Below are positions 4,131-31,958 of a stretch of 64,000 nucleotides of DNA, piece by piece. Made by a program: the position numbers and the translations under genes. The first letter of the stretch is position 1. Each line of letters begins with the position of its first letter. Below the pieces are notes generated by a model, which saw nothing but the letters and a program-made list of their open reading frames with translations, did not search any database and was not told where the DNA came from. This DNA comes from Flavobacteriales bacterium (GTDB taxonomy: Bacteria > Bacteroidota > Bacteroidia > Flavobacteriales_F > PHOS-HE28), in contig JAHBUL010000002.1 in the NCBI GenBank assembly GCA_019638085.1, positions 124,001 to 188,000 of the forward strand, written 5' to 3'.

Positions 4131-7037
4131 ATGACCCACCGCTGGCTCCTATCCTTTCTCCTGCTTCCCGCTCTTGTTCACGCCCAGGACACCACCACGT
4201 GGGCGAAGAACTATGCCACCGAACTGGTGAATCCGTTCGTGGGTACCGGCGGCCATGGGCACACCTTCCCCGGGCCTTGTGTGCCTTTCGGCATGGTGCA
4301 GCTGAGCCCGGATACCCGCACAGATCCCGTGGAATGGGACGGCTGCGGAGGCTATCATTACAGCGACAGCCTGATCTACGGCTTCAGCCATACGCACCTT
4401 AGCGGCACCGGTGTTTCCGATCTCTGTGATGTGCTTCTGATGCCTCTGAGCGGAGGGCTTACCACCAAGCCTGCGGAGTACCGTTCCCGCTTTTCGCACC
4501 AGCGCGAGGAAGCGCATGCCGGCTACTACAAGGTGCATCTGGATGACCCGAACGTGGATGTGGAACTGACGACCACCAAACGTGTGGGCATGCACCGCTA
4601 TGCATTCAAGCTGGAAGCCGCGCGTTCCATGGTGTTGGACCTTCGGCATCGGGACCGGCTGCTGGCCGCATCGATCAGGCAAAGTGGGCCGAGCGAGATC
4701 AGCGGGGAGCGCCGCAGCAGCTCCTGGGCACGGGACCAGCGCTTGTTCTATTGCATCCGCTTCAACGTGCCGGTCGGGTTGGAAGCTTCGCTCTCCGATA
4801 GCTCCGTTGCCGTGATCACGCTGCCCGCGAGGGGAGGGCCGGTGGTGGTGAAGGTCGGGATCAGCGCGGTGAGCGTGGAAGGTGCGCGGAAGAACCTGGA
4901 GGCCGAAGTGCCCGGCTGGGATTTCGATGCCGTGCGAAAACAAGCCGAAGAAGCTTGGGACAAGGAACTCGGGCGGATCGAAGTGCAAGGGGGTGAACTG
5001 GAACAGCAACGCATCTTCTACACGGCGCTCTACCACAGCCTGCTCGTCCCCTACCTCTTCAACGATGTGGACGGCAAGTACCGTGGGAACGATGGCAAGG
5101 TCCATACCGCAAAGCATGATGTCTACACCGTCTTCAGCCTCTGGGACACTTTCCGGGCGGAGCATCCGCTGTTCACCATCCTGGAACCGGAGCGCACGGT
5201 GGACTTCATCAAGACCTTCCTCGACATCTACAGCCGGACCGGACGCTTGCCCGTGTGGGAGCTGTGGGGCAACGAGACCGATTGCATGATCGGCTACCAC
5301 AGCGTGAGCGTGATCGCCGACGCCTACCTGAAGGGCATTCGCGGCTTCGATGCCGACCAGGCGCTGGAGGCGATGGTGGCCAGTGCCATGCGCGATGAAC
5401 CGGGCCTGAACGCGTTGCGGACGAAGGGCTACATCAGCAGCGAGGACCAGAGCGAAAGCGTGAGCCGCACCTTGGAATATGCGTACGACGATTGGTGCAT
5501 CGCCAAGATGGCCAAGGCGATGGGCAAGGACAGCTTGGCTTCCGTCTTCTTCGCTCGTGCCAGCAATTGGCGGAATCTCTTCGACCCGGAGACCGGCTTC
5601 TTCCGTGCCCGCTACAACAGCGGTTTCAAGTCTCCCTTCGATCCATATGAGGTGAACTTCGACTTCACTGAAGCGAATGCGTGGCAGTACAGCACCTTCG
5701 TCCCACAGGATGTGGAGGGCTTGGACCGGGCATTGAAAGCCAGCGGCCATGGCGGTCTGGAACAGCGATTGGACGATCTCTTCGATGCACACCCCAGCAC
5801 CACCGGCCGCACCCAGAGCGACATCACCGGATTGATCGGCCAGTACGCACACGGCAACGAACCCAGCCACGCCATGGCATGGACGTACGGCCGCGTGGGT
5901 CGGCAGGACAAGGCCAAGCGCATGGTGGACCGCATCCTCACGGAATTCTACCACGACACGCCGGACGGCTTGATCGGCAACGAGGACTGCGGCCAGATGA
6001 GCGCTTGGTACGTATTGAGTGCTTTGGGCATGTATCAAGTGGCTCCCGGCGAACCGGTGTTCGAACTGCAGGCACCGCTGTTCCATGCCTACCGGATCCA
6101 CCTGTCCAACGGCAAGGAGGTGAACGTGCGTTGCACCGGTGACCTGGTCGGTGAACGCTTCATCCGCTCCACGACGCTCAATGGAACAAGCGGCCGACTG
6201 GCCTCCATCCCCTACTCCACCCTCATGAACGGCATGGACCTGCGGCTCGATCTCACCGCCATGTGGCGCCCGCTGGAAGGAATGCCCTTCACCACCGTGG
6301 CCCGCGATCCGATCACGAGCTATCCGCCCACCGCGCCGATCATCACGGCCGGTTCCAAGGTCTTCAAGGGATCCATGGAGGTCACCGTAAGCAGCCTGGA
6401 CAGCCGCTGGCCGATCCATTGCACCGTGAACGGCGAACAGCCCACTGCTGGCAGTCCACTGTACTCAAGTCCCTATCGGCTGGATACCACGGCCACGGTA
6501 CGTTGCATTGCTGTGGATCAAGGTGTTCAGAGCCCCGTTAGTTCGGCACAATTCACGCTGATCGATCCGAACCGGAGCATTACCGTGGAGAGCAAATGGA
6601 GCTCGCAGTACGCCGCTGCCGGAGAAGAAGCCTTGATCGATGGCATTCGTGGAGCGGAGGATTGGCGTACCGGCGGTTGGCAGGGCTATCTCGGCAATGA
6701 TGTGCTCGCAACCGTGGACCTCGGCAGCGTGAAGCAGCTCAAACGCCTCGGTCTGAGCGTGCTCCAGGACCAACGCTCGTGGATCTGGTATCCCGAAAGC
6801 GTACAATTCGCGTGGAGCACGAACGGCCGCAATTGGAGTAGCGCCACGGTGGAGAACACCATTCCCCGCACGGAGGAAGGTACTTTGACGATGGACATGA
6901 TGACGGAGGTGTTGAACAAGCACGCGCGCTACATCAAAGTGATCGCGAAGAACCCGGGTCCCTGCCCGGAGTGGCATCCCGGTAGCGGAGATCCATCCTT
7001 CATCTTCACGGATGAGCTTTTGATCGAGTGCGAGTAG
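4131..7037 (+). CDS. GH92 family alpha-mannosidase, exported
   Basis: A 968-residue protein. The start at 4131 gives a clean signal peptide (MTHRWLLSFLLLPALVHAQ); an in-frame ATG at 4098 would add 11 residues. A GH92 N-terminal beta-sandwich (about 25-260) is followed by the (alpha/alpha)6 catalytic domain (about 265-720) with SLWDTFRAEHPL, ELWGNETDCMIGYHS, HGNEPSHAMAW and GNEDCGQMSAWY. The C-terminus adds a chitobiase-like domain (about 735-810) and an F5/8 type C (discoidin) carbohydrate-binding domain (about 820-965). Family members are calcium-dependent exo-mannosidases acting on N-glycans and similar mannosides. Most relatives have a second His in the NEPSHH motif; here it is Ala. No T9SS domain is seen, so a periplasmic location is likely. 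Confidence 0.93.
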   Translation: MTHRWLLSFLLLPALVHAQDTTTWAKNYATELVNPFVGTGGHGHTFPGPCVPFGMVQLSPDTRTDPVEWDGCGGYHYSDSLIYGFSHTHLSGTGVSDLCDVLLMPLSGGLTTKPAEYRSRFSHQREEAHAGYYKVHLDDPNVDVELTTTKRVGMHRYAFKLEAARSMVLDLRHRDRLLAASIRQSGPSEISGERRSSSWARDQRLFYCIRFNVPVGLEASLSDSSVAVITLPARGGPVVVKVGISAVSVEGARKNLEAEVPGWDFDAVRKQAEEAWDKELGRIEVQGGELEQQRIFYTALYHSLLVPYLFNDVDGKYRGNDGKVHTAKHDVYTVFSLWDTFRAEHPLFTILEPERTVDFIKTFLDIYSRTGRLPVWELWGNETDCMIGYHSVSVIADAYLKGIRGFDADQALEAMVASAMRDEPGLNALRTKGYISSEDQSESVSRTLEYAYDDWCIAKMAKAMGKDSLASVFFARASNWRNLFDPETGFFRARYNSGFKSPFDPYEVNFDFTEANAWQYSTFVPQDVEGLDRALKASGHGGLEQRLDDLFDAHPSTTGRTQSDITGLIGQYAHGNEPSHAMAWTYGRVGRQDKAKRMVDRILTEFYHDTPDGLIGNEDCGQMSAWYVLSALGMYQVAPGEPVFELQAPLFHAYRIHLSNGKEVNVRCTGDLVGERFIRSTTLNGTSGRLASIPYSTLMNGMDLRLDLTAMWRPLEGMPFTTVARDPITSYPPTAPIITAGSKVFKGSMEVTVSSLDSRWPIHCTVNGEQPTAGSPLYSSPYRLDTTATVRCIAVDQGVQSPVSSAQFTLIDPNRSITVESKWSSQYAAAGEEALIDGIRGAEDWRTGGWQGYLGNDVLATVDLGSVKQLKRLGLSVLQDQRSWIWYPESVQFAWSTNGRNWSSATVENTIPRTEEGTLTMDMMTEVLNKHARYIKVIAKNPGPCPEWHPGSGDPSFIFTDELLIECE

Positions 7038-16764: not shown

Positions 16765-17757
16765 TCACTCCGCCTTGATGATCTTCCGCACGAGCTGACT
16801 GCCGTCCTCAACCATCACCTTCAAGGAATACACCCCATTGTCCACATCGCCCAGATCGATCAGGACCTCTTTGTCCATCCAAGCGCCATATTGTTGAGCG
16901 AAGCACATCCTTCCGCGCATGTCCGTGATCTCGATGCTCCGTATGGCATTCCCTGAAGGATCGCCAACATGGAGGATCCCGCCTACCGGATTAGGATAAA
17001 GCCGGAGAGGACTGGCTGAAATATCATCGACGCCGACATCGCCCTCAGGTGCTAACGCGTACACCGTTCCGGATGGTGGAGTGCCGGAAACATGGATGCC
17101 GGGTTGCCAGATGCAATGGTCCCTGAAGGCGTATGATGGAAGAACGCAGGGGCCTGTCAGGCTTAGCGCATTGTTGCAGTTGTCGAATTCGAAAATGAAC
17201 TGTGTACCGTCCGTACCGCCATTACAATCCGGCTGGCCATAAGCACCCGCATCAGCAGAAAAATCACCGAAATGGACCTCTATGTGATCGTCAACCTCGA
17301 ACAGCCAGATCTGAAAGTTGACATAGTCGCTTGAGTCGCTGGAGGCGCACCATTCCCTGAAGCCTGCATTCTGCCATTGCACCTTCAGAATGCGTTGTCC
17401 GGGGTCACCCAGGACCTCATAGCTGATGGGTGAAGAAGAGTTGACCTGGTCTCTGTCCTCCAGCAGATAGCCCGATTCCGGATGACCGAACACACGCAAC
17501 TGCTTGTTCCCGATCCCCGGAAAGGAAAGGCCACCTCCTGCCATCACGTTCAGCGCTGTGATGGTCTCTCCATGGATCAAGAAATCGAAGTTGAAATAGA
17601 CCTGGAAGGAACTGCTGTTGTTCCAAGGAGAACCATTGTTCAATGGGATCGGGCTCACGAGGCCCTGATATGGAACGTTGGTCGTGCTGAAAACATATTG
17701 GCCGAATGAATACAGGACGGTCGAACTGGTCAGAAGAAGCGCGAAAATCCGTTTCAT
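16765..17757 (-). CDS. secreted protein with T9SS type A sorting domain
   Basis: A 330-residue protein. The start at 17757 gives a signal peptide (MKRIFALLLTSSTVLYSFGQ); the frame stays open upstream for 58 codons but without protein-like composition. The body (about 25-240) is beta-rich with a conserved-looking stretch SYEVLGDPGQRILKVQWQN and an NFQIWLFEVDDHIEVHFGD segment, a pattern seen in lectin-like surface proteins of this phylum. The C-terminal 75 residues (LRLYPNPVGGILHVGD to GSQLVRKIIKAE) are a type A sorting domain. Function is unknown. It is divergent from the alpha/beta hydrolase at 17952. Confidence 0.85.
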   Translation of the reverse strand: MKRIFALLLTSSTVLYSFGQYVFSTTNVPYQGLVSPIPLNNGSPWNNSSSFQVYFNFDFLIHGETITALNVMAGGGLSFPGIGNKQLRVFGHPESGYLLEDRDQVNSSSPISYEVLGDPGQRILKVQWQNAGFREWCASSDSSDYVNFQIWLFEVDDHIEVHFGDFSADAGAYGQPDCNGGTDGTQFIFEFDNCNNALSLTGPCVLPSYAFRDHCIWQPGIHVSGTPPSGTVYALAPEGDVGVDDISASPLRLYPNPVGGILHVGDPSGNAIRSIEITDMRGRMCFAQQYGAWMDKEVLIDLGDVDNGVYSLKVMVEDGSQLVRKIIKAE

Positions 17758-17951
17758 CAGCTTGCTGGTCGGGATATGAAAATAGGTCCCATTAGATGGT
17801 TCCATTGTTGGTCTTGCGTATTGAAGCAGGGAGTCAGCATGATCACCCCCGCCATGATCTACGCATGCAATGTAGCACGTTTGAGCAGGCCTCTTTTTAC
17901 GCGAGCGTTCCCCTAGGCGAACTGGTTGCATGATGGCCGTAACATTGCCCT

Positions 17952-22523: not shown

Positions 22524-23897
22524 TCAAGGCCTGGGAACAACAGCCCGGGAAGCTTGGCCCGTGCCGGGCGGTTCGGATCCCGATCCGACCGGCCGTGCTT
22601 TGCGCACCGCTTTCACCAAGCCCATGAGGGTGATGAAATAGATCAACACGGGGATCAGGTTCATTTGCTGGCCCGTGACGCGGCGTATGATCCAAGCGAT
22701 GAAGACCAGTATGAACAAGGGGATCACGGTCTTGATCGCATCCCATACGTAGTTGAGCACCATGGCCGCGAAACCCTTCGGCTGCGCCTGCTTTTTGGGT
22801 TGCCACGCGCGGGCGATCACCAGCCAAGTACAGAACACCAGCGCAGCGAAGAGCCCGAGCAAGGTGAGGCCGTTGAGCACATGGGCCCCGTTCCCGATCT
22901 CGTGGTAGAGGTCGATCAGCATGGCGCTGCCCCTGCTTTCCCCCAGAAAGGTGCGGTGCTGGTCCGTGCTGCCTTCGTGCGCCATTGCCGGGAATTCGCC
23001 AATGAACACCACCGCCTTGCGAGCTCCATCGTGCGCACGCAGTTGCCGCAGTAGGCGGGGCCAGCCCATGTCCAGTGCATGGCCGATCGGCATGGCCAGT
23101 GCATCCGGCGCGAGCTCCTGTTCCGGGTCGGGCACCGTGGGCAGGTAGGCCCAAGTGGGCATGAAGCCACCGTACACCAGCCGGCAGCCGCCCGGACCGC
23201 ACTCCTTCCACAGCCCGAGTGTGAAGCGCTCGGCCTTGCGCTGGTGCAGACGGAGGTACAGGGCGTAGGGCAGGGAATGCCCTTCGTCCCGGGCAGCGTT
23301 GTGCCAGGCGATCAGGCCATCCTGCTCGTTCTCGGTCACATCGGCCATCACGTCGCTGCCGAAGCGCAACAGCGGCGTGTTCTCTTCCACGGCGCGGGCC
23401 AAGAGCACTTTTTGGTGCATGGCCAGGTCCAGCACGGCTTCGCGCAGGGCACTGTCGTTCGGGCTGGAATCGGTGAACGCGATGTCCACCACCACCTGAG
23501 CGAAGTCCTCCTGGTGCGCGGCGAAGCGCTGGAGCAGGCGGGTCAGCTTGGCCCGGTCGGTCACCACACGGACGGTGCTGTCCTCCGCGTTCCCGTCCGG
23601 GTCCGGCACCACTTGTTTGTTACCGCTGTTGTCGATAAGGACGAAGGGTTGCCGTGCTTCCTTCGGGCTGTCGAACAGTGCAAGCTTGGTCTGCACATCG
23701 GCATTCTCACCGAAGTAGCCCGGCTGGCCGTTCAGTAAAAGCAGCAGTACCAGGCAGGCGAAGCCATGGCCACCGAGCAGCGCGGCATAGCGCCAACCAC
23801 GGGGCCGGTGCGGCGTTCGCCAGATCACCGCTGTAGGCACCAATGCCAGCAGCAGGGCCGCAGCGAAGATCACGAAGGCGTTGATGATCGCGACCAT
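22524..23897 (-). CDS. CHASE2-like membrane protein, third gene of the caspase operon
   Basis: A 457-residue membrane protein. Two N-terminal hydrophobic helices (about 1-22 and 38-58) lead into a large extracytoplasmic region (about 60-360). This region contains FVLIDNSGNK near its start, VVVDIAFTD in the middle and KAVVFIGEF and MLIDLYHEIGNG near its end, an order that resembles the CHASE2 sensor fold. Three C-terminal membrane segments follow (about 365-440). There is no kinase, cyclase or other output domain, unlike typical CHASE2 proteins. It starts 3 bases after the stop of the preceding gene. CHASE2 assignment is by pattern only. Confidence 0.6.
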   Translation of the reverse strand: MVAIINAFVIFAAALLLALVPTAVIWRTPHRPRGWRYAALLGGHGFACLVLLLLLNGQPGYFGENADVQTKLALFDSPKEARQPFVLIDNSGNKQVVPDPDGNAEDSTVRVVTDRAKLTRLLQRFAAHQEDFAQVVVDIAFTDSSPNDSALREAVLDLAMHQKVLLARAVEENTPLLRFGSDVMADVTENEQDGLIAWHNAARDEGHSLPYALYLRLHQRKAERFTLGLWKECGPGGCRLVYGGFMPTWAYLPTVPDPEQELAPDALAMPIGHALDMGWPRLLRQLRAHDGARKAVVFIGEFPAMAHEGSTDQHRTFLGESRGSAMLIDLYHEIGNGAHVLNGLTLLGLFAALVFCTWLVIARAWQPKKQAQPKGFAAMVLNYVWDAIKTVIPLFILVFIAWIIRRVTGQQMNLIPVLIYFITLMGLVKAVRKARPVGSGSEPPGTGQASRAVVPRP

Positions 23898-23900
23898 CGC

Positions 23901-24698
23901 CTATTCGGTATCGGGCCGGCACAAAGGAACCGGTAGCTGCTCGAGCGGAACAGTACCGTACTCGGCCTGGCAATATTGCTGGAGCAACCGGTGCCGTTGC
24001 ACGGTATCCATACCCTGCTCCTGCAGGGCGCGGAGACAAACCTGCTCCAATAGCTCCACCTTTTCCGCTTCTGAGATCACGCGCAGGGTGCAGGTGGCGA
24101 GGTCCTGTTTGCGCGTGTCAGCATGTCGCAGGCGGACCGGTATGTAGGGAGCCCGCAGATCGCCGAAGAGGTCCGCACTGAAGTGCAACGTATCGCCTTG
24201 CGACGGGACCGGACTTTTGTACACCACGCCATTCCGGGGATCGGTCCACAGCAGGAAATAACCGCTGGGCGCAAGGTCCGCATCCAGCAAGCGCACCCGC
24301 ATGCAAAGGGTGTCCCAAAGCCCGATGGTGTCGCGCAGGAACGCGCGCAGTTCGGCCTTGCTCTCCACGGTGCTGAAGGCTACGCCTTTACTGGAAAGTG
24401 AGACCAGGCCGGCTGCGTGTGGGCGGGCACTGGGTATGTGGTACACAAAGTCCTCCTCCTTGCCGGAGGGGCCGCGTTGGGTGAAGTGTACATAGCGCCC
24501 GCCCTTGTCACCGGGAAAGGTGCGCCGCAGGAGCTGCACGTACTCCGACAAGGATGCGGTGGCACCGTAGCGTGCGTTGAACTCGGCCTTTATTACCCCA
24601 CTGCTGGCCGGGCAGGAGGTGAGCAGGAAATGGTTTTCCTGCGCATGGGATGTGCACCAGATCAAGAGACCGGAAAGAAGTACGCCTGCACGCATCAT
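23901..24698 (-). CDS. exported protein of unknown function, second gene of the caspase operon
   Basis: A 265-residue protein with a signal peptide (MMRAGVLLSGLLIWCTSHAQ). The first 90 residues of the mature part hold SEYVQLLRRTFPGDKGGRYVH and a FVYHIPSARPH segment; the middle (about 115-190) is beta-rich; the C-terminal third is helical and Gln/Leu-rich with several Cys. No family is recognised. Its ATG overlaps the TGA stop of the caspase gene (ATGA), which suggests translational coupling, and the CHASE2-like gene follows almost at once. A role in regulating or anchoring the caspase is a guess from position alone. Confidence 0.7.
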   Translation of the reverse strand: MMRAGVLLSGLLIWCTSHAQENHFLLTSCPASSGVIKAEFNARYGATASLSEYVQLLRRTFPGDKGGRYVHFTQRGPSGKEEDFVYHIPSARPHAAGLVSLSSKGVAFSTVESKAELRAFLRDTIGLWDTLCMRVRLLDADLAPSGYFLLWTDPRNGVVYKSPVPSQGDTLHFSADLFGDLRAPYIPVRLRHADTRKQDLATCTLRVISEAEKVELLEQVCLRALQEQGMDTVQRHRLLQQYCQAEYGTVPLEQLPVPLCRPDTE

Positions 24699-27052
24699 TT
24701 GGCACGGACCATCTGCACACGTACCACGGTCCTGTCCTTAAAGATCACTTGGCCTTCCAGTACGCGGCCTTTATCGCGCAGCACCAATTTGCTGGGCAGG
24801 AAGTCCGGGGTGTTCGGGTCGTCGTTCAATGAGATCACCTCACCCTTGATCACCCCGGAACATAGGATGTTCGCTTCACCGACGATGCCGGACAGTTTGA
24901 TGCTTCCCCGGTACATGTCGTGAAAGTTGATCGTCTGATCGCCGGTACTGTTGGTGAAGATGGCATTGTTCAGCACATGATCGCCATCGAGGGACGAACC
25001 GCTCAAGTTCAAGTTGACCCGCTCTCCTGTTCCGAAGGCCACAACGCCTTGGGCGGTGGTCCAGTCATCGCTCAACACCATCTGTCCGCTGGCTTGGTGG
25101 TCCTTTCGCCCATCGGTGAACAGAACCACATCCCCTTGGATCCGGCCTCGTGCATCGATGATCTTATCGCCTACATGGCCGCTCACGGCTATGTCCTCCC
25201 GATTAGCCCAGTATGTGCAGAGTTCTGTATTCCGGTCCGCGGTAACGAAACGACGACCGATGAGCTTCTCCCGCTTGGCGATTCCCATCCGCTGTAAGGT
25301 GTAGCGCTCCTTTCCACCGCCCTTCAGTTCCAAGGTCACGTTAAGGCTGCTGCTGTCCGGGGAGAAAAGGGCAAAACCTTGCGTCACGCGCTCGGTAGTG
25401 GCCTCATCGGTGAAACCGATCTGGATGCCTTGGATGGTCCCCGGTCCGGAAAGTACCTGTCCGCCCAAGATTCCCGTAAGCACAACACGACCGCGGTTCT
25501 GGCCATAGAACGTGATCTTGTCCCCGGTGGCGGTATCGGCATACACTTGCTCGTTCAGCAGGCGTGGGGTCTTCGGTTCCGAATAGGTGATCTTCGGCAA
25601 CGGCGGCAATTTGTAGCTCTCGTAGTTGTGGTCGCCGGATGAGGTGGTGACCTCAGGCTTCCCCTCCACGTTGGGCGGCGGAGTGGTCCATTCCACTGCC
25701 TCTACGGCCTGAGGTTGGGCGGTGCTGATGTCGTAGTCCGAGGTCACGCTCAGCGGGAAATCATCGCAGCGCGTGCAGTCGCGTTTCGGGCGTTGCGGCT
25801 GGTCCTTGGTCTGCAAGGCGCGGGCGTTCACCTCATCGCCCAAGTAGCGGTCCAATTCATACACCGTCACCCTGCCGTTCTTGTTCCCGGACCGGGCCTT
25901 GTCCGCTTCCCCCTGCAAGCCCTTTATCAGAAAGTACGTGAAGATGCCATGGCCCCCGCCCAAGGTCTCATCCTCGAAACTGCGCTCGGTATCCGACGAG
26001 GAGGTGAAGATCACCAGCGCATCATCCGTCTCGGCCATTTCCTGGAAGAGGTGTTCGCGGCGTTCGCCCATGGACTTGCCGCCGCTGGCCATCATGCCGC
26101 TGTAGCAGGCATCCAGGAAGAGCACCTTCTTGCGCACCTTGCCATTGCTCAGTCGCGAGCGCACTTCGCTGCGGCTGAGCGCGGTGCTCACGATGGCATT
26201 CTGGTTATCCGTGCGCGTATCGTTAGTGAAGAAGTAGTACTCCTCCCCGTTGTCCACCGTTTGGCCGTGCCCGCTGAAGTAGAGAAAGAACACATCGGTG
26301 CTGTTGGCACTGTTCATCATGTCGCGCATGGCACCGAGGATCGCTTCGCGCGTAGCGTTCTCATCCACCAGCAAGCGCACGTTGTCCGGATCGGCGGCAA
26401 GGCCATCGGGGCTGGTGATGAAATCGTAGAACGCAGCGGCATCCTTCGCCGGGTACCGCAGGTTCTTGTCCGCACCGTACTTGTGCTTGCCCACGGCGAT
26501 GATCAGCGCGCGGATCTCCAAGGGTGCCGGAGCGGCGGAGGGTGAAGCATCATCATCCGTGTAGGGTTCAGGCACGGTGGCCGCAGCTTGCTTCAGCGGC
26601 GCTGGAACGACTTCAGTCTCGGACTCGGCCTCCTCCGTGAGGTTTTCCGTTACGATCTCCGCAGTTGGCTTCGGATCGTCCGGAACTTGCGCTTCCACAT
26701 CATCACGTACAACGACGAACCTGTGCTTAACAGATCGGTGCGCCTTGTTCATCGCGCCGATCACTACGAAGTTCTTCCCCGGCTCAAGCTTCAGCGAGTA
26801 CACGAAGATGCCGCCGTCCTTCACGATTACCTCAGCCCCGTTCACAAGTAGACCGATCACGTCGCTTTCACTGAGCACACGGCCACCCAGCTTGATGCTC
26901 GTTTCGGTGGTATGTACAATGGAATCCGGTCCCAGAACGGGCTGCACGAACTCGATCACAGGTGCCATTTGTGCGAACACGACCATAACTGAGCATGAAC
27001 ACGCAATGGCAAGGAGTGCACTGCGGATAGGGAGGAAATTGCCGATGGACAT
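24695..27052 (-). CDS. exported caspase family (peptidase C14) protein with C-terminal beta repeats
   Basis: A 785-residue protein. The start at 27052 gives a signal peptide (MSIGNFLPIRSALLAIACSC, cleaving near FAQ). Next come an Ig-like domain (about 32-118), an acidic linker (120-178) and a caspase fold (about 180-420) with both dyad residues: H262 in YFSGHGQ and C316 in LFLDACYSG. After a Cys-bearing linker (CTRCDDF) lies a beta-rich region (about 520-770) with repeated GDKITFYG/GDKIIDARG/GDQTINFHD-type strands. Caspase-fold proteases cut after Arg, Lys or Asp; the target is unknown. Export is unusual compared with cytoplasmic bacterial caspases. It is the first gene of a three-gene operon. 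Confidence 0.88.
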   Translation of the reverse strand: MSIGNFLPIRSALLAIACSCSVMVVFAQMAPVIEFVQPVLGPDSIVHTTETSIKLGGRVLSESDVIGLLVNGAEVIVKDGGIFVYSLKLEPGKNFVVIGAMNKAHRSVKHRFVVVRDDVEAQVPDDPKPTAEIVTENLTEEAESETEVVPAPLKQAAATVPEPYTDDDASPSAAPAPLEIRALIIAVGKHKYGADKNLRYPAKDAAAFYDFITSPDGLAADPDNVRLLVDENATREAILGAMRDMMNSANSTDVFFLYFSGHGQTVDNGEEYYFFTNDTRTDNQNAIVSTALSRSEVRSRLSNGKVRKKVLFLDACYSGMMASGGKSMGERREHLFQEMAETDDALVIFTSSSDTERSFEDETLGGGHGIFTYFLIKGLQGEADKARSGNKNGRVTVYELDRYLGDEVNARALQTKDQPQRPKRDCTRCDDFPLSVTSDYDISTAQPQAVEAVEWTTPPPNVEGKPEVTTSSGDHNYESYKLPPLPKITYSEPKTPRLLNEQVYADTATGDKITFYGQNRGRVVLTGILGGQVLSGPGTIQGIQIGFTDEATTERVTQGFALFSPDSSSLNVTLELKGGGKERYTLQRMGIAKREKLIGRRFVTADRNTELCTYWANREDIAVSGHVGDKIIDARGRIQGDVVLFTDGRKDHQASGQMVLSDDWTTAQGVVAFGTGERVNLNLSGSSLDGDHVLNNAIFTNSTGDQTINFHDMYRGSIKLSGIVGEANILCSGVIKGEVISLNDDPNTPDFLPSKLVLRDKGRVLEGQVIFKDRTVVRVQMVRAK

Positions 27053-27712: not shown

Positions 27713-28474
27713 TCACGCCCCCAAGCGCTGCAGCAACTCTTCCTTCTTGTTGCGGGAGACCTTCACTTCCGTTCCGTTGTTCATGACCAAGGTGCCGCCA
27801 TCGCCGCGCAGGTATTTCTGCACATGGTCCAGGTTGGCCACAAAGCTGTGATGTACTCGCAGGAAGCGGTCGTCGGGCAGTTGGTCGGCCACTTCACGCA
27901 AGGTCTTGGAGACGAGGATGCGGCGATCGCCGGTAAGATGTACGCGGGTGTAGTTGCTCTCGCTCTGGCAGCAGATGATCTCCGCCGTGTCCACCATATC
28001 GAGCCCGTGCACGGTGCTGAAGGCGATACGCTGCTTTTCGGGTGCGGGTGCCCGCAGTTCAGAGATCAACGTGCGCAGGCGTTCTTCCAACAGGGGATCA
28101 GATGAGGTGCCTGCACCTCGCAGGCTTTCGATCCGCTCCAACGCGGTAAGCAATTCATCCTCCTGCACGGGCTTCAGCAGGTAGTCGATGGCGTGTACCT
28201 TGAATGCTTTCACGGCAAAACGGTCGTAGGCCGTGGTGAATACGATGTGCGTGCCCGTATGGCCCCATCGTTCCAAGAGTTGGAAGCCGTTCATGCCGGG
28301 CATTTCAATATCGAGAAAGAGCACATCACAGGGGTACTTGCGCAAGTGGGCGAGTCCTTTGGTGGGATCCTGGAACATGGCCTGTACTTGCACACGGAGG
28401 GGGTGACGGCCCAGCAGCAGTTGCATGGTGTTGGCGCAATGCCGTTCATCGTCAATGATCACTGCGTTCAGCAT
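27713..28474 (-). CDS. LytTR-family response regulator
   Basis: A 253-residue protein. The receiver domain (about 1-120) has the acidic pair near IIDDE, phospho-acceptor D55 in LFLDIEMPG and a conserved Lys in YLLKPV. The LytTR DNA-binding domain (about 150-250) shows QSESNYTRVHL, FLRVHHSFVANLDHV and GTEVKVSRNKKEELL. It begins immediately after the kinase stop codon (TGA then ATG, no gap), so it is the partner of the kinase. Targets are unknown. Confidence 0.93.
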   Translation of the reverse strand: MLNAVIIDDERHCANTMQLLLGRHPLRVQVQAMFQDPTKGLAHLRKYPCDVLFLDIEMPGMNGFQLLERWGHTGTHIVFTTAYDRFAVKAFKVHAIDYLLKPVQEDELLTALERIESLRGAGTSSDPLLEERLRTLISELRAPAPEKQRIAFSTVHGLDMVDTAEIICCQSESNYTRVHLTGDRRILVSKTLREVADQLPDDRFLRVHHSFVANLDHVQKYLRGDGGTLVMNNGTEVKVSRNKKEELLQRLGA

Positions 28475-31400
28475 TCAATTCAAGGGTATGGTCAATGTGA
28501 TCAGCGTGCCGCCTGCTGATCCGTCAGCCAGTACGAGGTCTTCCACCCGAACATCGCAGCGGATGCCCTGTTGCTTCTGGATCATGGCCAAGCGTTGCTC
28601 GGTTATGGACATGCCCATGCTGCGTTTTTTCAGCGCACTGCGGCTTTTGATCTCGGCGGCCCGCGTACGGCCGATGCCATCATCCTCCACTTCGATGCGC
28701 AATGCACGGCCGTCCCGCTGGATGCGCAGTGCCAGCTCCCCGCCATCGGACTTCTGCATCAGGCCATGCCAGATGGCATTCTCCAAATAGGGTTGGATGA
28801 GCATTGGTGGGATCATGGTGGCTTCCTGATCGATGGCCGGGTCCACGGAAATGTGGTGGCTGAACTTATCATCAAAGCGCGAGGCCTCCAACTCCATGTA
28901 CAAGCGCAAGGCCTGCAGTTCATCCGCCAGTGGTACGGTGCGCTGGTCGCTGTGGTCCAGGATCAAGCGGATCAAGCGCGCGAACTTGCTCAGGTAGCGG
29001 TCGGCTTCTTCCGTGCGGCTGTTCAGCACGTGGTGGCGGATGCTGTTGAGGCTGTTGAACAGGAAATGGGGATTCATCTGTGCCCGCAAGGCGGTGAGTT
29101 CCATGTCCGCCAGGCGCTTGTCGAACTCCGATTTCAGCTGCGCTTCCTTGCGCACCGCATTGATGCGCAGGCGGAAGAAGACATACACCAATAGCAGCAC
29201 TCCGATCAAAACGGCGCTTCGGAACCACCACGTCCTCCACCAGGGGGCGATCACGGTGAGCGGTACCACATCCGTGGCAAGTATGGTGTCATCCTCGCTC
29301 ACTGCACGGAACTCCAACAGGTGGTGACCATCGGGGACATTGGCGAAGCTGGCTACGCCGTTCGCGTCCGTCGCCAACCACTCGTTCGCTGTGGGGGTCA
29401 GTCGGTATTCGATCCGGTGAGGAAACTGGCCCAAGACATCCACCAAGGAGAAGGTGAGTTTCAGGAAGTTCTGATCGTAGCGGAAGCGCAGCGCATGGTC
29501 GGGTCTTACCGCTTGCAGGTCGACCTCTTCATCGAAAACACGGATGGACGCCAAGTAAAGGCGCGGTACACCTTCCGGCCCCCGTTCACGCTCGGGTTCC
29601 CAGAAGAGCATCCGGCCCGCCGCGCCCACCAGCACATCCTCCGAACTTCGGACCACAGGCCCGCCCAAGCTACCGCCTGGCAAGCCCACTGCCGTGCCAC
29701 ACACCTGCCATCCGCTCATGGTCCGTTGCGCAAGCCCACCGATGCCTGAGAGCCAGAGTGATCCATCCGTATCGAAGAACAGCTCGCCCACACGTTCAAA
29801 GGGCAAGCTATCCTGGGAGGTGAGCGTACGTGTCCGGAACGGATGTTCTAACGGGTCGTCCACCACCACCACGCCGCGTTTGGCATCGGTCATCCAGATG
29901 CGCCCCTGTGGGTCGATGGCCATGGAGCCCACACGCTCGAGCCGTGCAACGGAGTCGCTGCGCATCGCGAGGTCCAGGTTGATGAAATGCCCGCTTTCGG
30001 GATCGAGAATGGAGTAACCGCGATCGTGGCCGATCCACACGCGGCCTGCGCGGTCCTCCACGGCGGCAAGGAGGTTGCTGCCGTTGGCCAGTGCGTGCGG
30101 ATCGTCACGCTCGGGAAGATATTGAGCGGCTACGGAAAGGTCGGTACGCAGGCGGATCAGGCCATCGTGACGGCCGAGCAAATACAGCTCGCCGCTGGAG
30201 TGCCGGAACAAGTCCTGGAAGATGCTGTTCCAGCTGCTGTCGTTGAAGCCGCTCTCCGCGTAGGTCATACGCTGCGTACGCAGGTCGATGCGGTACAGCT
30301 TGTAGGCGCCGATAGCGAGCACTTCGTTCGGCCCGCTTCGCACCATGCCGTCCACGGAGAAATGCTCGCGTGAAGGATCGTCCCATACACTTTCCGGCGG
30401 TGCAATGCGCACGAGGCTTGCGTTCGATGGCTGGAATCGATAGATGCCGTCAAGGCCGTAGCCCGAGAGGAGCACGCTACCATCGTCCAAGGGCAAAAGG
30501 CACTGGATCACGTGCATGCCCACGTAGGGCTTTGCCTGCGACACGAACCGCAGTGAGCGGAACCGTTGGCGCGTATTGCTGAAGAGGCGCACATCCTGTC
30601 GCGTGATCACCAACAGGTCGCCTTGTACCGTGGTGCGCAGTCTGTTCACGCCCTGCCCATCGAGGCCAGCAAGCTCCGGCGCCTCGCCCGGCACCAGCAT
30701 GTTGATCGTCCCGGATGTGGTGTCCAGCAGGGCCAAGCCCGTGGTATTATTGCCCACCCAGATGTTACCATCGGTATCCACGGTGAGCGCGTTGAAGGTG
30801 TTGGTGAACTGACGAATGGCACCGTCCTGCAGGATGGCGTAGCGGCGGAAGTGCTTGCCCGTGCTATCCATGTGGACGATGCCGGCACCCCAGGTGGTGG
30901 CCAGCAAACTGCCGTCCGGGGCCTGCGTCAGCTCGCGGAAGCTGTTGGTGCGCAGGTGCAGCTTGTTCACGGTGTTCTCCTCGGGCATGATGAAGTGGTG
31001 CATGGACCACTCAGGACCTTTCAGCCGGAGGATACCATTGGTGGTGGCACACCAATAGACATCGTCGTTGTAGCGGTCCTGGACCATGCAATAGCTATTC
31101 GTGCGCGCCCGGCTCTCGTAGGTGTTCCCATATTCAGGGAAGGCGATGCGGTCGAAGTTTCCCTGTTCCGCATTGAAGCGGCAAATAGCTGCATTGCGCA
31201 CACCGAAGAAGAGGGTCCCGGCCCGGTCCTCCATCGCCCACGACACATGGGGTGCGGAGATGCTCCGTGGGTCTTCCGGCCGGTGCTGATAGCGCATACA
31301 CGTGAGGCTGGAACGGTCCACCCGCGCCAAACCTCCGCTACCGGTGCCCACCCACAGTGTACCATCGCTGGCCAACAGCAGAAAGGTGAGATCGTCCGCA

Positions 31401-31660
31401 GGCATCGAGGTGCTGTCCGCAGGATCGTGCTGCAACACGCGCATGTGGGATCCATCGTAGCGGTGTAGTCCGTTGGAAGTGGCGATCCACAGAAAACCAT
31501 CGTCGTCCATCACCGCATCCCGCACATTGGTGGAAAGCAGCCCTTCCGCAGCGCCGATCACGCGCGGATTACCGAAAGAGCGCGTGCCTGCCACCTGTGC
31601 CCCGGCAGGCACGAGCAGCGCTATGCAAAAAGCAGTGGTAAGAAGGCGAATGCATCCCAT
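28475..31660 (-). CDS. LytS-type sensor histidine kinase with two-component-regulator propeller
   Basis: A 1061-residue membrane sensor. The start at 31660 gives a signal peptide (MGCIRLLTTAFCIALLVPAG). Repeated blades such as DGFLWIATSNGLHRYDG, DGTLWVGTGSGGLAR and RIWMTDAKRGVVV form a large extracytoplasmic propeller (about 30-690). A Y_Y_Y-type domain (about 715-785), one membrane helix (WWFRSAVLIGVLLLVYVFF) and a His_kinase domain with NPHFLFNSLNSI (phospho-His near 865) follow, then an ATPase domain with ENAIWHG and DDGIGR. This architecture senses periplasmic ligands, often glycans. It pairs with the LytTR regulator. Confidence 0.93.
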   Translation of the reverse strand: MGCIRLLTTAFCIALLVPAGAQVAGTRSFGNPRVIGAAEGLLSTNVRDAVMDDDGFLWIATSNGLHRYDGSHMRVLQHDPADSTSMPADDLTFLLLASDGTLWVGTGSGGLARVDRSSLTCMRYQHRPEDPRSISAPHVSWAMEDRAGTLFFGVRNAAICRFNAEQGNFDRIAFPEYGNTYESRARTNSYCMVQDRYNDDVYWCATTNGILRLKGPEWSMHHFIMPEENTVNKLHLRTNSFRELTQAPDGSLLATTWGAGIVHMDSTGKHFRRYAILQDGAIRQFTNTFNALTVDTDGNIWVGNNTTGLALLDTTSGTINMLVPGEAPELAGLDGQGVNRLRTTVQGDLLVITRQDVRLFSNTRQRFRSLRFVSQAKPYVGMHVIQCLLPLDDGSVLLSGYGLDGIYRFQPSNASLVRIAPPESVWDDPSREHFSVDGMVRSGPNEVLAIGAYKLYRIDLRTQRMTYAESGFNDSSWNSIFQDLFRHSSGELYLLGRHDGLIRLRTDLSVAAQYLPERDDPHALANGSNLLAAVEDRAGRVWIGHDRGYSILDPESGHFINLDLAMRSDSVARLERVGSMAIDPQGRIWMTDAKRGVVVVDDPLEHPFRTRTLTSQDSLPFERVGELFFDTDGSLWLSGIGGLAQRTMSGWQVCGTAVGLPGGSLGGPVVRSSEDVLVGAAGRMLFWEPERERGPEGVPRLYLASIRVFDEEVDLQAVRPDHALRFRYDQNFLKLTFSLVDVLGQFPHRIEYRLTPTANEWLATDANGVASFANVPDGHHLLEFRAVSEDDTILATDVVPLTVIAPWWRTWWFRSAVLIGVLLLVYVFFRLRINAVRKEAQLKSEFDKRLADMELTALRAQMNPHFLFNSLNSIRHHVLNSRTEEADRYLSKFARLIRLILDHSDQRTVPLADELQALRLYMELEASRFDDKFSHHISVDPAIDQEATMIPPMLIQPYLENAIWHGLMQKSDGGELALRIQRDGRALRIEVEDDGIGRTRAAEIKSRSALKKRSMGMSITEQRLAMIQKQQGIRCDVRVEDLVLADGSAGGTLITLTIPLN

Positions 31661-31958
31661 GAGTGCGTTGGAGGAGGGCTTCTTGTGGAATCGTCTGCAA
31701 GTAAACACCCACACGACCGTGTACGAAGATGATGGATCCTGATGGACAGGTAGCCGGATGGAAGGTCCCATTGAGCCGTTGCCGGGATCGGCTGAGCCAT
31801 TCCCGGAGATCGATTATCCCATCGCGCAAATAGGCTGAAAGTCATTTCTTCGTGAGTTGGGCATGGCATTTCCTACAGCTACCTTCAAGCGCTGTACTTG
31901 ACGGGGCGCAGTTCGAAAGCCCTGTCCTGAACAAACCGACCAACCGATCCTCCTCCCC
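31661..31958. other. intergenic region between divergent genes
   Basis: It separates the divergent kinase gene and the T9SS gene at 31959. Promoters for both must lie here, but no convincing TTTG/TAnnTTTG pair was found. No other structure seen. Confidence 0.35.

Follow-up and report, generated by a model that had tools for sequence, protein, structure and literature searches.

Bacterial caspases are usually discussed as cytoplasmic enzymes of cell death or immunity, and the stimulus sensed by CHASE2 domains has been described as unknown. Here we analyze a three-gene cassette in which the two meet, on the minus strand (27052 to 22524) of a 64,000-nucleotide stretch of DNA (the window) from a Flavobacteriales bacterium (GenBank assembly GCA_019638085.1, contig JAHBUL010000002.1, positions 124,001 to 188,000). 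The cassette encodes a caspase and a smaller protein (the middle protein), both predicted to be exported, and a membrane protein (the third protein) that appears to be a CHASE2 protein without an output domain. The recurrence of this partnership between exported caspases and output-less CHASE2 proteins across Bacteroidota suggests an undescribed envelope protease pathway.

CHASE2 receptors whose partner is exported or lies in the outer membrane have precedents in three described systems. The Burkholderia BiofilmReg operon encodes a FecR/LysM protein and a CHASE2 histidine kinase (PMC5192318). It resembles the cassette in that an exported FecR-type protein is encoded beside a CHASE2 membrane receptor, but the receptor carries a PAS/kinase output, a response regulator is present, and there is no protease. 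In Magnetospirillum, mtxA is followed by a gene for a CHASE2-adenylate cyclase, and a structure of MtxA is available (PDB 4z29; PMC4439547). MtxA, like the middle protein, is an exported protein (~313 amino acids) whose gene precedes a CHASE2 gene; it consists of Ig/Fn3 and then TPR parts, and the order Fn3 then TPR is that of the FecR-like partners described below. The system differs from the cassette in having a cyclase on CHASE2 and no caspase, and the similarity of MtxA to the middle protein is not significant. In Sinorhizobium, the outer-membrane protein NsrA lies upstream of CHASE2 adenylate cyclases (PMC13001267), inner-membrane receptors that need an outer-membrane protein for signal perception; the cassette also encodes a putative inner-membrane CHASE2 receptor, whereas the output in Sinorhizobium is a cyclase and no protease is involved.

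Coupling of a caspase to CHASE2 has itself been described. The caspase-CHASE2 fusion of Trichodesmium (PMC2853523, PMC3501461) differs from the cassette in being a single polypeptide with a caspase that is predicted to be cytoplasmic and no exported partner. The EACC2-caspase-CHASE2 proteins of TRADD-N systems (PMC8195603) also unite caspase and CHASE2 within one system, but they are fused and use an EACC2 adaptor; the window caspase scored 104.7 bits against NF047832, the related model for EACC1-associated caspases, which is below the 140-bit cut-off. In the open-licence papers searched, we found no description of a module composed of an exported caspase, an output-less CHASE2 protein, and an exported adaptor.

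Organization of the cassette

The caspase gene (24695..27052) encodes 785 amino acids and belongs to Peptidase_C14 on the evidence of both the family profile (Pfam PF00656, E 7.8e-18, cut-off passed) and the His/Cys dyad, which we read from the codons of H262 (26267-26269) and C316 (26105-26107) within a catalytic domain at residues ~181-410 (25823..26512). Its nearest neighbors in the PDB are metacaspase structures, and it is the only C14 gene detected in its own genome at E<=1e-5. A signal-like segment opens the protein, as it does most of the CHASE2-linked caspases that we examined, and is followed by an immunoglobulin (Ig)-like, Glucodextran_B-like domain at residues 42-116 (26705..26929) that is sub-threshold for PF09136 (E 9.4e-5); the Ig-like domain that precedes CHASE2-linked caspases at three other loci (L053, L058, and L062) passes the cut-off of that family. 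The C-terminal part (24698..25564) is a beta-like repeat region, in which MAFFT aligned three repeats of 92-104 amino acids (residues 497-589, 590-693, and 694-785; 497-785 overall). Elsewhere in the window, the minus-strand gene at 16765-17931 encodes an exported protein with a C terminus that, read by eye, looks like a sorting signal for type IX secretion; the caspase has no such ending.

The caspase gene overlaps the middle gene (23901..24698) by 4 nucleotides (ATGA), and a gap of 3 nucleotides separates the middle gene from the third (22524..23897). The first overlap may instead be TGATG, because homologues of the middle gene begin at its second ATG. The initial annotation, made from the sequence alone, had described three co-oriented genes with these junctions and a caspase with this dyad, a signal peptide, and C-terminal beta repeats, and the family match, the signal-like segment, and the repeat alignment bear it out in each of these respects.

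The third protein as a probable divergent CHASE2 protein

The third protein (457 amino acids) is predicted from hydropathy and charge to have two and then three transmembrane segments flanking an extracytoplasmic part of ~280 amino acids, with positively charged loops in the cytoplasm. The layout is that of CHASE2 proteins, in which an extracytoplasmic domain follows an N-terminal transmembrane segment and precedes three more, with one additional segment at the N terminus. About 25 residues remain beyond the last transmembrane segment, a tail that the positive loops place in the cytoplasm; the kinase or cyclase output of CHASE2 signalling receptors is absent, as it is throughout the short CHASE2 class. 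The extracytoplasmic region (residues ~58-340; 22878..23726) contains the motifs TDR..L, VVxDI, D..L, GxF, and DxHxT, which are conserved in alignment.

PF05226, the Pfam model of CHASE2, did not match the window protein at E<=10, and the assignment runs through intermediates. A search with three congeneric third-protein sequences retrieved relatives in genomes G185, G233, and G092, and a widened profile added G595 and G700. Two of these relatives lie above the PF05226 cut-off (G700, at L040/L050, 1.4e-8; G185, at L017/L053, 1.3e-6) and two below it (G595, 8.5e-5; G233, 1.9e-4). In profile-profile comparison with hhalign, the window group matched the G185/G595/G700 group (L053/L039/L050) with a probability of 97.8% (E 9.7e-13, 364 columns), and the latter group matched output-less, PF05226-positive proteins with a probability of 96.4% (E 1.1e-9). 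The direct comparison of the window group with output-less CHASE2 proteins was weak (E 0.01), and the negative controls, caspase and FecR-like alignments, gave no match. An AlphaFold2 model was poor, with a predicted local distance difference test score (pLDDT) of 39 from an alignment of three closely related rows. By profile and predicted topology, then, the third protein is a putative divergent CHASE2 protein that lacks an output domain and is linked to PF05226 through its relatives. The initial annotation had called it CHASE2-like and output-less, which stands at the level of profiles and not as a direct family match; its extracytoplasmic placement of the CHASE2-like part agrees with hydropathy and loop charge.

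Caspases and FecR-like partners of CHASE2 across Bacteroidota

CHASE2 was detected in 136 of the 395 genomes sampled in the phylum. We analyzed gene proximity in 37 genomes with many CHASE2 matches that were weak or short; these genomes were chosen on CHASE2 and not on caspases (G185, G595, and G700 had been seen previously). In this set 10 of 41 caspases lay <=6 kb from a CHASE2 gene, against 0.19 expected by random placement, an excess of about 50-fold, and such proximity occurred in 8 of the 18 genomes that contained both; the caspase counts are lower bounds, because PF00656 missed divergent caspases (in G185 and at L016). PF00656 detects a single caspase in each of G000, G024, and G233, and in each case it is the copy in the CHASE2 cluster. 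The association between caspases and CHASE2 is well supported.

Output-less CHASE2 genes are frequent in Bacteroidota. Twenty-three of the loci examined carry a CHASE2 protein of ~390-500 amino acids without an output domain, and at 20 of them an exported FecR-like protein or a FecR-like domain is encoded next to it; the other three loci come from one genus. The N-terminal part of these FecR-like partners matches a genuine FecR protein (L051 8673-9350; PF04773, 6.9e-11) in profile comparison (6.8e-6), and Fn3-like and then TPR-like parts follow.

Three kinds of locus, namely L060, the G185 cluster, and the pair L058 and L062, are especially informative. At L060, the gene that comes immediately after an output-less CHASE2 gene (4758-6704, plus strand) encodes, in one polypeptide, a signal-like segment, a FecR-like domain (residues 10-144), a caspase (161-401), and an outer-membrane beta-barrel (448-618). 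In G185 (L053 and L090; G185:C96:~326900-351400), one strand carries genes for a papain-like/DUF4384 protease, nine exported caspases, CHASE2, and a FecR-like partner, and the last caspase gene overlaps the CHASE2 gene by 4 nucleotides. At L058 and L062, CHASE2 and FecR-like genes are followed by three more, which encode a papain-like protease with a trace of DUF4384, a small protein with an export signal, and a caspase; at L067 a papain-like protease takes the place of the caspase beside an output-less CHASE2. A protein with an OmpA domain (PF00691, 2.5e-17) is encoded between CHASE2 and a WD40-caspase gene at L071 (8057-10243, minus strand).

The middle protein

The middle protein (265 amino acids) has a signal-like N terminus and no family match in Pfam, NCBIfam, or PADLOC. 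We recognized homologues at L007, L006, L016, and L018, and at five of five loci the middle gene is followed by the CHASE2 gene. A profile of the middle protein did not find the FecR-like partners at significance. An AlphaFold2 model, built on three closely related rows, had a pLDDT of 51 and comprised an alpha/beta N-terminal part (~75), beta strands, and two C-terminal helices. A Foldseek search with this low-confidence model gave no significant match; the top chain was MtxA (4z29, E 0.41), a match that is suggestive and no more, in that mtxA, like the middle gene, precedes a CHASE2 gene. We regard the middle protein as the positional and probably the functional equivalent of a FecR-like partner and as a probable adaptor, and do not claim that it belongs to that family.

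Conservation of the cassette and probable exchange of its middle/CHASE2 pair

The full cassette is present in 3 of 45 genomes of the genus; a further scan of genome contigs returned only the two known congeners, and no plasmid match was found. Two other genera, represented by G092 and G233, encode recognizable homologues of the middle protein. The profile E-values of these homologues follow by construction, because the profile includes both; independent support comes from their position directly ahead of CHASE2, their length, their export signal, and the alignment. Weak matches to the middle gene with E above 1e-4 (for example in G282, G322, and G111) were not used, and no CHASE2 or caspase gene was recognized at the locus beside the G282 match (L041). 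The order middle gene then CHASE2, with an adjoining caspase, holds in all loci seen, and the three-gene operon is kept within the genus only. The neighborhood comparison across Bacteroidota that the initial annotation had proposed thus finds the three components together in three genera but the operon in one. The G004 copy (G004:C112) lies on an 11-kb contig that also carries, by eye, an HsdM-like type I restriction-modification gene (L020:1469-3766, minus strand).

Comparison of the window with G024 (L019) points to a recent exchange of the middle and CHASE2 genes as one unit of ~2.1 kb. The two sequences are nearly identical (~99% at the DNA level) from about 24597 to 22523, whereas identity falls to 70-85% in the region encoding the caspase C terminus and the sequences downstream of the cassette are unrelated. 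Strong divergence extends over the C-terminal coding part of the caspase (synonymous divergence, dS, ~0.97 for residues 520-790) and into the middle gene as far as about codon 30; the remainder of the middle gene has a dS of 0.03 and not one amino-acid change, and CHASE2 has a dS of 0.045. A nearby aldehyde dehydrogenase gene has a dS of 0.45.

A proposed envelope protease module

We tentatively propose, at somewhat short of an even chance, that the cassette encodes an envelope protease module in which the CHASE2/middle protein pair tethers and controls the exported caspase. The CHASE2 protein would span the inner membrane, present its receptor domain to the periplasm, and lack an output domain on the cytoplasmic side; the middle protein would be its exported partner, the two forming the sensing unit. 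The partner would tether the caspase at the membrane and control its activity or its access to substrates; the caspase would be active outside the cytoplasm, and its C-terminal repeats would choose envelope or surface substrates. The basis of the module is supported by the gene set, the export signals, the topology, the recurrence, and a caspase that is fused to an adaptor-type domain at another locus, whereas physical contact, the direction of control, the stimulus, and the substrate are parts that we infer. The L060 fusion and the recurrent CHASE2/FecR-like pair support the tether, and the lack of an output domain on CHASE2 is what one would expect if the protease itself were the output. The same fusion, with its outer-membrane barrel, and the same pair lend weight to the suggestion in the initial annotation that the middle protein couples the membrane protein to the protease. 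The periplasmic sensor-protease module envisaged there is partly supported: the membrane protein may sense a stimulus and switch on the protease, or control may run in the reverse direction.

Several observations weigh against the proposed module. The best hhalign matches of the middle-protein profile to FecR-like partners have E-values of 0.004 (probability 8%) and 0.018 (2.5%) and cover the C-terminal part only, and the modelled N-terminal part, at low confidence, is unlike the all-beta FecR domain. In G092 and G233 (L016 and L018) the caspase gene is the first past CHASE2 but lies on the opposite strand, convergent and not co-transcribed. Only 6 of the 23 output-less loci have a caspase in the stretch examined (up to 16 kb), and because most CHASE2/FecR-like pairs are without one nearby, the pair must have another role too. 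The scarcity of caspases, including the absence of any beside the L039 pair, and their variable position and strand favor a reading in which CHASE2 and its partner work on their own as a sensor or scaffold of the envelope and the caspases are loose neighbors sharing only location or regulation, as in a cell-surface gene neighborhood. We judge this distinctly unlikely in view of the 50-fold co-localization, the L060 fusion, and the three genomes in which the sole Pfam-detected caspase sits inside the CHASE2 cluster.

At some loci a caspase and a small exported protein (with DUF4384 at L082) adjoin CHASE2 proteins that do carry an output domain, a cyclase at L051 and L082 and a SpoIIE phosphatase at L081. 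For such loci the simplest reading, again to the detriment of our proposal, is an exported protease that feeds a receptor reporting inward. Applied to the cassette, this reverses the flow: the caspase would act upstream by cleaving either the middle protein or the ectodomain of CHASE2, and processed CHASE2 would signal through its transmembrane bundle to an unlinked cytoplasmic partner, as in regulated proteolysis. We consider this rather unlikely, since the cassette CHASE2 ends ~25 residues past its last transmembrane segment, no cytoplasmic partner is encoded, and the L060 fusion seats the caspase in the place of the partner rather than presenting the partner as a substrate. The CHASE2-SpoIIE phosphatase gene at L081 (8066-10054, plus strand) has two caspase genes and a papain-like protease gene as neighbors.

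The caspase could also be the killer in a module for self-destruction or phage defense. Caspases are known from immunity and death systems of prokaryotes (PMC8195603, PMC7159879), and the restriction-modification gene on the G004 contig would agree with such a role, but this reading appears highly improbable. The caspase carries a predicted export signal, we recognized no nucleotide-binding or phage-sensing partner and no defense genes alongside within the window, and a PADLOC scan of the three cassette proteins matched only the generic caspase model, leaving the other two proteins unmatched and the system components incomplete. On the PADLOC result we set the defense-system reading aside.

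Extended beyond the cassette, the proposed tethering and control of an exported caspase by a CHASE2/partner pair would become a pathway across Bacteroidota, which we hold to be possible though clearly doubtful. Output-less CHASE2 proteins with FecR/MtxA-like adaptors would control exported caspases and papain-like proteases, in some cases with barrel or OmpA proteins as the connection to the outer membrane, and the protease, instead of a kinase or cyclase, would be the output of the receptor. If true, the recurrent pairing would supply a regulator for exported caspases and an output for output-less CHASE2 proteins, both testable in cultivable Bacteroidota, and a control of periplasmic proteolysis that differs from DegS/RseP-type cascades.

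Genes upstream of the cassette

Upstream of the caspase gene and on the same strand, the region 27713-31771 encodes a response regulator of the LytTR type, together with a long sensor in which parts of the sequence are propeller-like and histidine-kinase-like. Judged from these sequence features, the two genes are a possible regulator of the cassette.

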